DNA of 7,113 nucleotides, from NCBI GenBank assembly GCA_003132865.1, contig PKYZ01000366.1, positions 1 to 7,113 of the forward strand, given 5' to 3'. The translations under genes and the position numbers were made by a program. This stretch comes from Bryobacterales bacterium. GTDB lineage: Bacteria; Acidobacteriota; Terriglobia; Bryobacterales; Bryobacteraceae. The notes beneath the pieces are model-generated. The model was not told the DNA's origin and ran no database searches. It saw nothing but the letters and a program-made list of their open reading frames with translations. This document shows, piece by piece, positions 2,501 to 5,567 of this stretch. Positions within the stretch are counted from its first letter, which is position 1. Each line of letters opens with the position of its first letter.

Positions 2501-4798
2501 ATGGATATGTTTAACCGAAGAGGTTTTCTCAAGGCCGGCGCGGCGGGAGTGGGCGGCGCGGCTCTCTGGCAATCGGCCGCGGCAGCCCAAACCGCGCCGC
2601 CGCGCGCTTCCCTCCGCCGTGTCCTGCCGATGAACCGCAACTGGCTCTATGGCGGGCGCGCGGTCCCAGGCTGCTCCGCCCCGGATTTCGACGACATTAA
2701 ATTCCAGCGCGTCACCATCCCGCACTCGAACAAGATCTTCCCCTGGCACAGTTTCGACGAAAAGGATTTCCAGTTCGTCTCCATCTATCGCCGCCATTTC
2801 AAGCTGGCGCCGCAGGCGGGCCGCCGCGTTTTCGTGGATTTTGCCGGCGTCATGACCGCCGCCACAGTCACCATCAACGGCCACAAGCTCGGCGAATATC
2901 GCGGCGGCTACACACCTTTCTCCTTCGATGTGACGCCGCACCTGAAGCCGGACGCGCCGAACGTCCTGGCCGTCGAGGTGGATTCCACCGAGCGGCCCGA
3001 CATCCCGCCCTTCGGCGAGAACATCGACTACCTGACCTTCGGCGGCATCTATCGGGAAGTCGCGCTACGCATTGTACCGCCGGTATTCATCGACAACCTA
3101 TTTGCCAAGCCGGTGGATGTCTTGGGCGACGGCCGGCGCGTGGAGGTGAAGTGCCTGGTCAACGGACAAGCCGCGGGCCCGCTCACGCTGAAGGTGGAAC
3201 TGCGAGATGGCGGGCGCGTGCTGTCTTCGGTGGAAGGGGAGGTTTCCGGTCAGCCGCTGAGCCTTTCGAAGCTTGGCTCCATCGAACTTTGGGACCTCGA
3301 TCGCCCGAAACTCTATACCGTCACCGCCCGCCTCCACCAAGGCGGCGCCCCCATCGACGAGTACTCCACGCGTATCGGTTTCCGCGAAGCGCGCTTCACC
3401 CCGCAAGGCTTCATGCTGAACGGGAAACATATCAAGCTGCGCGGTCTCAACCGGCATCAGACATTTCCCTACGTCGGCGGAGCCATGCCCGCCCGCGTGC
3501 AGCGCCGCGATGCGCACGTCCTGAAGCGCGAGCTGAAGTGCAATATCGTGCGTACTTCGCATTATCCGCAGTCGCCGCACTTCCTGGACGCCTGCGACGA
3601 AGCCGGCCTGCTGGTCTTCGAGGAAATCCCCGGCTGGCAGCACATCGGCGACCAAGCCTGGCAGGATCTGGCGGTGCGCAACGTCGAAGCGATGATCCGC
3701 CGCGATTGGAATCATCCGTCGATCGTGCTGTGGGGCGTGCGCATCAACGAATCGCAGGATAACCACGATTTTTATACGCGCACCAACGCGTTGGCTCACG
3801 AGCTGGACAACTCCCGCCAGACCGGCGGCGTGCGCTACCTGTACGACACCGAATTGCTCGAAGACGTGATGACCATGAACGATTTCGGCTTCCCGCTGAG
3901 GCCGCCGAACCACCCGCTGTACCTCAACACCGAGTTCAACGGCCACATGTTCCCCACCAAGCGCAACGATAACGTGGACCGCGTGATGGAGCATGCCCTG
4001 CGCCACGCCCGCGTGCACAACCAACTGGCTTCGGACGATCGCTACGCTGGCGGCATCGGCTGGTGCGCCTTCGACTACAACACGCACGCCAACTTCGGCT
4101 CCGGCGATAAGATCTGCTACCACGGCGTGACGGACATTTTCCGCATACCGAAACCCGCCGGCCAGTTCTACCGCTCGCAGTGCGACCCCAAGGAGGAGAT
4201 CGTGCTGGAGCCGTGCTTCAACTGGTCGCAGGGCGATCAATCCGAAGGCGGCGGCATCCACCATGCCGTAATCGTTTCCAATTGCGATCACCTGAAGATC
4301 TATGTAAAGGACGATCTGAAGGCGGAGGTCGAACCCGATCGCGAGCACTATGGGCACCTGCAGCATCCGCCCTTCGTGATCGACTTGGCCGGCGAGCACC
4401 TGGAGGATTGGGGCGACCTGCGCATCGATGGCTATATCACTGGCGCGAAAGTAATCGAGAAGACCCTGCCGGGCAACGATTATGACCGCCAGTTGCATGT
4501 CGAGCCGGACGACGCGGTACTGGTGGGCGACGGCATCGATGCCACGCGGGTGGTGCTGCGCGTGACCAACGAACACGACGGCGCGCGGCCCTTCTCGACT
4601 GGCGCGGTTGCGCTGCGCCTGGAGGGTCCGGGCGAGATCGTCGGCGAGAATCCGTTTTCGCTCGTTGGCGGCGTGGGCGCCGTGTGGGTCCGCAGCAAAG
4701 AGGCGGCGGGTGTCATCCGGCTGCACGCACGGCATCAGTATTTGGGGGAGCGGACCGCCGAGATTCGGGTAACACCGGCCGAGGCGGAACAGGTGTAG
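2501..4798 (+). CDS. Tat-exported glycoside hydrolase family 2 enzyme, beta-galactosidase-like
   Basis: From ATG 2501 the protein has 765 residues. It opens with a twin-arginine signal (NRRGFLKAG, Arg6-Arg7), a hydrophobic Ala/Gly-rich segment and a likely cleavage after SAAAA near residue 29, so it should be exported folded to the periplasm. GH2 domains follow: a sugar-binding jelly roll (about 42-200, with GGYTPF at 135-140), an immunoglobulin-like sandwich (about 210-300), and a TIM barrel containing GLNRH (315-319) and RTSHYP (351-356). The acid/base is probably Glu417 in WGVRINES and the nucleophile Glu478 in LNTEFNGH. A C-terminal region of roughly 200 residues looks beta-rich and Ig-like. 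GH2 enzymes cleave terminal beta-galactose, beta-glucuronic acid or beta-mannose; the substrate cannot be fixed here. The frame runs open back to ATG 2342, but that extension covers the five hairpins, is Cys/Arg-rich and would bury the Tat signal. ATG 2507 is an alternative start; neither start has a clear ribosome site. Confidence 0.9.
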   Translation: MDMFNRRGFLKAGAAGVGGAALWQSAAAAQTAPPRASLRRVLPMNRNWLYGGRAVPGCSAPDFDDIKFQRVTIPHSNKIFPWHSFDEKDFQFVSIYRRHFKLAPQAGRRVFVDFAGVMTAATVTINGHKLGEYRGGYTPFSFDVTPHLKPDAPNVLAVEVDSTERPDIPPFGENIDYLTFGGIYREVALRIVPPVFIDNLFAKPVDVLGDGRRVEVKCLVNGQAAGPLTLKVELRDGGRVLSSVEGEVSGQPLSLSKLGSIELWDLDRPKLYTVTARLHQGGAPIDEYSTRIGFREARFTPQGFMLNGKHIKLRGLNRHQTFPYVGGAMPARVQRRDAHVLKRELKCNIVRTSHYPQSPHFLDACDEAGLLVFEEIPGWQHIGDQAWQDLAVRNVEAMIRRDWNHPSIVLWGVRINESQDNHDFYTRTNALAHELDNSRQTGGVRYLYDTELLEDVMTMNDFGFPLRPPNHPLYLNTEFNGHMFPTKRNDNVDRVMEHALRHARVHNQLASDDRYAGGIGWCAFDYNTHANFGSGDKICYHGVTDIFRIPKPAGQFYRSQCDPKEEIVLEPCFNWSQGDQSEGGGIHHAVIVSNCDHLKIYVKDDLKAEVEPDREHYGHLQHPPFVIDLAGEHLEDWGDLRIDGYITGAKVIEKTLPGNDYDRQLHVEPDDAVLVGDGIDATRVVLRVTNEHDGARPFSTGAVALRLEGPGEIVGENPFSLVGGVGAVWVRSKEAAGVIRLHARHQYLGERTAEIRVTPAEAEQV

Positions 4799-4823
4799 GT
4801 GGGACAGGCCTACTGGCCTGTCC
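4796..4823. repeat. GTGG-headed hairpin, copy 2
   Basis: GTGG (4799-4802) is followed by GACAGGCC (4803-4810), loop TACT, and GGCCTGTC (4815-4822), a perfect 8-bp stem. G4802 can also pair with C4823. The first 14 nt from the TAG stop are identical to those after the PilZ gene. The bases after it (TTCTGTCT) are pyrimidine-rich, so it may also act as a weak terminator for the GH2 gene. Confidence 0.75.
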
Positions 4824-4850
4824 TTCTGTCTCAACCGCCGTCCCGGTAGC

Positions 4851-4865
4851 CTTACCGATGGTAAG
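4851..4865. promoter_or_regulatory. inverted repeat at the antitoxin start, probable autoregulatory operator
   Basis: CTTACC (4851-4856) and GGTAAG (4860-4865) are perfect reverse complements around GAT, ending 8 nt before the ATG. AbrB/MazE-type antitoxins usually repress their own promoter through short palindromes in this position, so this is the natural operator candidate. Confidence 0.55.
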
Positions 4866-4873: not shown

Positions 4874-5359
4874 ATGGAGCGAGTTACAGTTTCCTCTAAG
4901 GGCCAGATCGCGATTCCAAAGGCGGTCCGCGATCTCATGGACCTATCCGCAGGCGCCAAGCTGATGATCGAAGTCCGGGGACAGGAAATTGTGCTCTCCA
5001 AAGAACCAGCCTGGAAGAAGTTGCACGGGGCCGCCGCCGGCAGCGACCTGGTTACCGCCTTCGCCCTACACAAGAAGCGGGAGCGCGAGCATGAAGACTC
5101 GCGTGCTTGGTTCGTGGGCGATTCTGCCATTGATCCATTCCAAGAAAACCAGCCGACACCCTCGTGGCCGCGCTCCTCGCCGGAGGGCGAAGGCGGACAA
5201 GCTCGACTCCTGATGAGCGCTATCAACGTGGGCGAGGTTTACTACTTCCTGCGGAAGCACCACAGCCCGGACCTCGCGGAGTCTCCTAAAGAACTCCCCA
5301 ACCCCAAGTTCTCTCCCAGAATCGACCAGTCCCCCGGACTGGCCCCCTGCTTGGCCTGA
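4874..5359 (+). CDS. AbrB/MazE-family antitoxin with stop lost and read-through into toxin sequence
   Basis: Residues 1-45 form a swapped-hairpin AbrB-type DNA-binding domain (VTVSSKGQIAIPKAVRD, then AKLMIEVRGQEIVL). A toxin-binding tail follows (WKKLHGAAAGSDLVTAFALHKKREREHEDSRA), up to residue 78. In this family the protein should stop about there, after 75-85 residues. The next codon is TGG (5108-5110), one base from TGA, and the frame then continues for 83 more residues to a total of 161. The extension first reads the toxin gene out of frame. From 5183 it reads the true toxin frame (ARLLMSAINVGEVYYFLRK), and it ends inside the 67-nt insertion. The N-terminal domain looks intact, so operator binding may survive; the tail is probably a by-product of decay. 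Transcription probably starts at or beside the ATG under an autoregulatory palindrome. Confidence 0.8.
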   Translation: MERVTVSSKGQIAIPKAVRDLMDLSAGAKLMIEVRGQEIVLSKEPAWKKLHGAAAGSDLVTAFALHKKREREHEDSRAWFVGDSAIDPFQENQPTPSWPRSSPEGEGGQARLLMSAINVGEVYYFLRKHHSPDLAESPKELPNPKFSPRIDQSPGLAPCLA

Positions 5360-5567
5360 ATCCTCGCGCAGCTTGCCCGTAACGATCGAAGTACCCACGG
5401 CCGAGGATATCTGGCATGCCGCATCGCTGAAGGGGCGCTTCCCGATTTCATACGCCGACGCCTTCGCTGCGGCCCTTTCCCAGAAATACAATTGTCCTCT
5501 CGTCACCGGCGATCCCGAATTCCGGTCTGTCGACCAATCGGAACTCGACCAGATTGGGCGCGAGTAA
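5091..5567 (+). pseudogene. decayed PIN-domain (VapC-type) toxin
   Basis: PIN toxins are Mg-dependent RNases that depend on three or four acidic residues. The gene would start at ATG 5091, inside the antitoxin, reading MKTRVLGSWAIL. Its frame is broken three times. An extra A in the run 5145-5148 shifts to PADTLVAALLA (5149-5181). An extra base near 5182 shifts to the segment with LLMSAINVGEVYYFLRKHH (5183-5293). A 67-nt insertion (5294-5360) returns it to SSRSLPVTIEV through to TAA 5567, including the conserved YADAF and VTGDPEFR. Joining these pieces gives 135 residues, the normal length for the family. The Asp expected after VL is Gly (codon GGT at 5109-5111), which alone should abolish activity. 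The two 1-nt shifts could be sequencing errors; the insertion and the Asp loss are harder to explain that way. Confidence 0.85.
5294..5360. repeat. 67-nt palindrome-bearing insertion inside the toxin gene
   Basis: Aligning the toxin to its family pattern (KE then SSRSLPV) leaves 67 extra nucleotides. GAA occurs just before the insertion (5291-5293) and again at its end (5358-5360), which could be a 3-nt target duplication or chance microhomology. The insertion contains the hairpin CCAGTCC (5326-5332), loop CCC, GGACTGG (5336-5342). It has no coding capacity, so it looks like a small non-autonomous palindromic element. Confidence 0.6.

Follow-up and report, generated by a model that had tools for sequence, protein, structure and literature searches.

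The window, which is the whole stretch of DNA analysed here (7,113 nucleotides from a Bryobacterales contig, PKYZ01000366.1), carries an antitoxin gene of the AbrB/MazE fold followed by the remains of a gene for a PIN-domain toxin of the VapC type (Table 1). The antitoxin starts with the ATG at 4874, and in the list of open reading frames its frame stays open for 161 codons (161 aa), up to the stop at 5357-5359. A Pfam scan with the whole run-on frame as query gave PF04014 at 31 bits against a cut-off of 24.7. Overlapping antitoxin and toxin genes, a feature of VapBC modules, are present in the window, with the toxin ATG at 5091 inside the antitoxin gene, an overlap of 20 bases in two different frames and a putative shared operon. 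At the site under study, antitoxin codon 79 is TGG (5108-5110) and toxin codon 7 is GGT, for Gly (5109-5111); the bases and the reading of both frames (TGG and GGT) given in the preliminary description were exact on re-reading.

Table 1 Features of the antitoxin-toxin locus in the window
Feature	Position	Strand	Evidence
Inverted repeat CTTACC-GAT-GGTAAG, candidate operator upstream of the antitoxin	4851..4865	.	Pattern shared with relatives
Conserved antitoxin part, 78 codons, AbrB/MazE fold	4874..5107	+	PF04014 match; 78 aa is the usual length
Ancestral antitoxin/toxin overlap, toxin start to antitoxin stop	5091..5110	+	Alignment with 21 relatives
Toxin (VapC, PIN) start, reads MKTRVLGSWA	5091..5121	+	tblastn, frame 2
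Site of the base change, TGGT in the window; TGA nested in GAT/GAC in relatives	5108..5111	+	Comparison with relatives
Antitoxin run-on	5108..5359	+	List of open reading frames
Micro-inversion, 21 bases, arms TTCTG/CAGAA, then one extra base	5122..5142	+	Protein comparison
Toxin piece, second frame, RKPADTLVAALLA	5143..5181	+	tblastn, frame 3
Toxin piece, third frame, EGEGGQARLLMSAINVGEVYYFLRKHHSPDLAES	5183..5283	+	tblastn, frame 1
Insert, about 68 bases, not in functional relatives, contains CCAGTCCCCCGGACTGG	5284..5351	+	DNA matches of relatives
Toxin C-terminal half, first frame again	5358..5567	+	PF01850, tblastn

Lesions of the toxin gene and features around the module

When the relatives P0006 and P0018 were matched to the window by tblastn, the toxin was found to be spread over three frames (5091-5147, 5143-5187 and 5183-5356), and from about 5183 the run-on of the antitoxin is the middle part of the toxin in the toxin's own frame (toxin residues 31 onward). 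The N-terminal toxin piece is too short and had no Pfam match. The bases at 5122-5142 are the reverse complement of the sequence of the relatives, whose DNA was deduced from the three reading frames of P0002, P0003 and P0006; among the copies seen, this micro-inversion is common to the window and P0001 only, and it does not occur in P0002, P0003 or P0006. Further downstream, the DNA matches of functional relatives stop at about 5262-5283 and restart at about 5351, on either side of the insert. The C-terminal half was matched in the first frame by the intact relative P0040 (tblastn) and by PF01850 in the Pfam scan (5373-5564, 33.1 bits against a cut-off of 23.6). The PIN-domain toxin in the window is a remnant only; the intact P0040 scored 53.5 bits.

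The insert can be seen directly in P0006, P0018 and P0019, and is probably carried by P0003 and P0025 too, both of which end where it would give a stop, while P0001, P0002 and P0004 have no readable frame reaching it. As far as it is visible, the insert is as widely shared as the change at 5110. It contains a perfect palindrome, CCAGTCC-CCC-GGACTGG. Its identification as a dispersed repeat was unsupported, since of 237 family genomes only 3 gave matches, and these were 22-24 bases long. In P0004 the remains of the toxin seem to be linked to a second antitoxin fragment that is out of frame, which hints at rearranged or repeated copies of the dead module.

Upstream of the antitoxin, the pattern CTTAC N3-7 GTAAG was present within 60 bases of the gene in 14 of 20 relatives tested, against 6 of 10000 shuffled upstream sequences; the palindrome of the window taken by itself is not significant, being equalled by 75 of 300 shuffles. 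Similar palindromic stretches, GTGGGACAGGC...GCCTGTC, were noted by eye directly after two stop codons (1914-1950 and 4797-4824) and are perhaps terminators or a small repeat. The Rfam scan of the window gave no match. A small protein with two CxxC pairs is encoded at 1999-2337; it had no Pfam match above the cut-off, and presumably resembles an HNH nuclease.

The antitoxin stop codon in relatives

The first protein search used the 161-aa run-on frame as query, with a length limit that shuts out 78-aa antitoxins and favours run-ons, and a second search was hence performed with the 78-aa part. This found 663 antitoxin relatives. Of the 120 that were listed, 117 have lengths of 76-88 aa and 3 are run-on, and exactly 78 aa was recorded for 88, which agrees with the earlier proposal that a stop after 78 residues would give the usual length. 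The nearest listed relatives outside the run-on set are at most 88% identical and 76-88 aa long. In two other proteins, P0005 and P0008, a single frame runs through antitoxin and toxin as a fusion that retains the Asp, and P0005 has both Pfam domains.

Genome contigs were scanned with the antitoxin alignment, which gave 53 loci, and the best 21 (L001-L021) were read. All 21 are titled Acidobacteria or subgroups thereof, and their identity ranges from 77% down to 40%. In every one of them the antitoxin TGA is nested in the codon of the first catalytic Asp of the toxin. This Asp codon is GAT in 16 loci and GAC in 5, and is preceded by CTT (18), GTT (2) or ATT (1). The nucleotide alignment of the overlap in homologues, proposed in the preliminary description as a check, thus returned CTT, GTT or ATT, then GAT or GAC, with TGA ending the antitoxin, in 21 of 21; the proposal that the ancestral antitoxin stop was embedded in the catalytic codon of the toxin is borne out. 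All 21 loci have T immediately before the Asp codon, against 20% T at the third positions of Leu, Ile and Val codons elsewhere in those toxins. The 21 loci share ancestry, and the keeping of this T fits selection for the stop but common descent as well.

Among the loci that gave a row in a motif scan over 91 loci, the same nesting was also found in L064, L066, L071 and L074, and in L044, which comes from another phylum. The nested arrangement is not universal, because in two more distant relatives, L030 and L077, the antitoxin stop is TAG and lies outside the nested position. Most of L022-L053 matched at the antitoxin start only, with no PIN start at that place.

PIN genes in general were surveyed in 14 genomes, which were chosen for holding relatives from the antitoxin alignment and are not a random sample. 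The 90 genes were taken from the top of a longer list, leaving out rows that start past profile position 3 and G549:C107, which has two internal stops. An Asp near the start was present in 89 of the 90, and 79 of these 89 have an upstream frame of at least 45 codons. The commonest offsets were -14 (14 genes) and -11 (10 genes). A nested TGA was found in 9 of the 89. Three of these nine (L113, L139 and L169) are the known loci L018, L019 and L044, and two (L119 and L131) have a rival upstream frame, so that the clear new cases are four: L107, L128, L140 and L148. In two further PIN genes, L126 and L179, the TAG that ends the upstream frame shares the final base of the Asp codon, at offset +2. 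Judged from these sequences, the nested stop is the rule in the acidobacterial family of the window and an uncommon, recurrent option elsewhere.

In published work, an overlap of about 20-30 bases is reported as usual for toxin and antitoxin genes (PMC2446400), and a toxin start within the antitoxin gene is described as common and is held to permit translational coupling (PMC4229260). The window resembles overlapping toxin-antitoxin genes generally in its 20-base overlap and different frames. Unlike them, it belongs to a family in which the stop lies exactly in the catalytic Asp codon, in 21 of 21 family loci compared with 9 of 89 PIN genes surveyed. No description of a stop nested in the PIN catalytic codon was found in titles and abstract openings, in which subscription journals are thinly covered, and this argues only weakly for novelty.

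Descent of the base change at 5110

Among the matches listed in two protein searches, 180 proteins were checked, and 133 of them show the toxin motif, with Asp in 129 and Gly in 4 (P0006, P0018, P0019 and P0025). Four others, P0001-P0004, have Trp at the position of the antitoxin stop, which represents the same bases in the other frame. Eight close copies of the window, known from protein sequences only, therefore carry the change. They come from several sources and differ in their further lesions; P0018 alone represents 18 contigs. The database searched was clustered at 90% identity, so one of its clusters could conceal a copy that has the normal stop.

In a tree of 63 antitoxins, built on 78 columns only and with a bootstrap that had not settled, the run-on antitoxins of the window and P0001-P0004 group together in a single clade (support 100/96) inside the 78-aa antitoxins, with the 78-aa antitoxin P0181 as sister. 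The position of this single run-on clade inside the 78-aa antitoxins gives the direction of the change, from nested stop and Asp to Trp and Gly. The clade may represent a few populations sampled repeatedly. No DNA of a run-on copy was found among the 21 loci read of the 53 from genome contigs (best identity 77%), in viral contigs, or in 237 genomes of one family and 257 of the order (best match 73% DNA identity), and plasmids and phages gave no match.

A sequencing or assembly error at 5110 is hardly credible, since eight proteins from several sources agree on this state, four of them in each frame, and differ in their other lesions. These comparisons indicate that the base change is inherited and is neither private to the window nor, save with very low probability, a read error.

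Decay of the pair and its meaning

The locus is very probably a decayed VapBC-type pair of an acidobacterium, from a family with a nested antitoxin stop, in which the change at 5110 is accompanied by further lesions of the toxin; the type of overlap is uncommon but recurrent. The window is like type II VapBC modules (AbrB/MazE-fold VapB, PIN VapC) in the antitoxin-first order, the overlapping frames and the presence of PF04014 and PF01850, and it shares the upstream inverted repeat with relatives. It is unlike a working VapBC in that the toxin is broken and the antitoxin passes its normal end. The first conserved acidic residue of the PIN active site, which is Asp in 21 of 21 loci and in 129 of 133 motif-bearing proteins, is replaced by Gly, and the window is therefore a remnant of the VapBC family and not a working member. 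Comparison with relatives shows that in this family the toxin starts within the antitoxin gene, with the antitoxin TGA nested in the first catalytic Asp codon. It also shows that in the lineage of the window the substitution at 5110, with its polarity taken from the tree, at once changed Asp to Gly and left the antitoxin frame without its stop. The toxin was further wrecked by the insert, the inverted stretch and the frame shifts observed. The toxin is most likely inactive, and the end of the antitoxin, left without a partner, presumably drifts.

The preliminary description had proposed that one A-to-G change both killed the toxin and extended the antitoxin. That account holds for the run-on and for the loss of the Asp. 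As an explanation of the dead toxin it is not supported as stated, for besides the base change the toxin carries about 68 inserted bases, an inverted stretch and two frame shifts. The link claimed between the two genes is looser than was stated, and the coupling is partial. Two letters of the TGA also belong to the Asp codon. Of the nine possible single-base changes in TGA, the genetic code lets eight destroy the stop; five of the eight alter the Asp too, while the other three affect the T and leave the toxin unchanged where CTT precedes the Asp. Death of both halves in one step is possible.

The insert occurs in every copy able to show it. That the substitution came first, killing the toxin and extending the antitoxin at once with the remainder as later decay, is given a little less than an even chance. 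The change at 5110 is present in all eight close copies and the inversion only in the window and P0001, so the change is older at least than the inversion, and in P0006, P0018 and P0019 nothing interrupts the toxin frame between its start and the insert; the insert, however, is shared equally widely. Almost an even chance likewise falls to the opposite order, in which the insert killed the toxin and the substitution followed as a passenger in a gene free to drift. The insert splits the PIN domain in two and, visible in P0006, P0018 and P0019 and deduced for P0003 and P0025, dates back as far as the substitution to judge from these copies. Among the 180 proteins none was seen that combines the insert with the Asp, and likewise none that has Gly but lacks the insert, so that neither order is favoured.

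Retention of the antitoxin by selection, in a solitary role as antitoxin or repressor acting for example against related VapC toxins, appears improbable. No stop interrupts the 78 antitoxin codons in the window or in P0001-P0004, with few residue differences, and a candidate operator is present upstream; against this, P0025 has a frame shift inside the antitoxin, and the run-on substitutes for the usual C-terminal end. The locus supplies a clear case in which a single base is both a letter of the antitoxin stop and a letter of the toxin catalytic codon, and comparison with relatives establishes the ancestral state.

A broader reading, which we regard as rather doubtful, is that the catalytic Asp codon of PIN toxins is a recurrent parking place and a backstop for antitoxin stops, and that in such modules a single step destroys both halves more often than in others. 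Where GAT or GAC comes after a hydrophobic codon with T as its last base, TGA would arise in one antitoxin frame, and an antitoxin losing its own stop would be extended to precisely the Asp codon. Thereafter, most mutations removing the Asp would also extend the antitoxin. If this were true, the lineage of the window would be one caught example of the death of both halves. Should nested stops prove common, loss of the toxin and change of the antitoxin would be mechanically linked, and such a linkage would bear on the decay of toxin-antitoxin modules and on the origin of solitary antitoxins.
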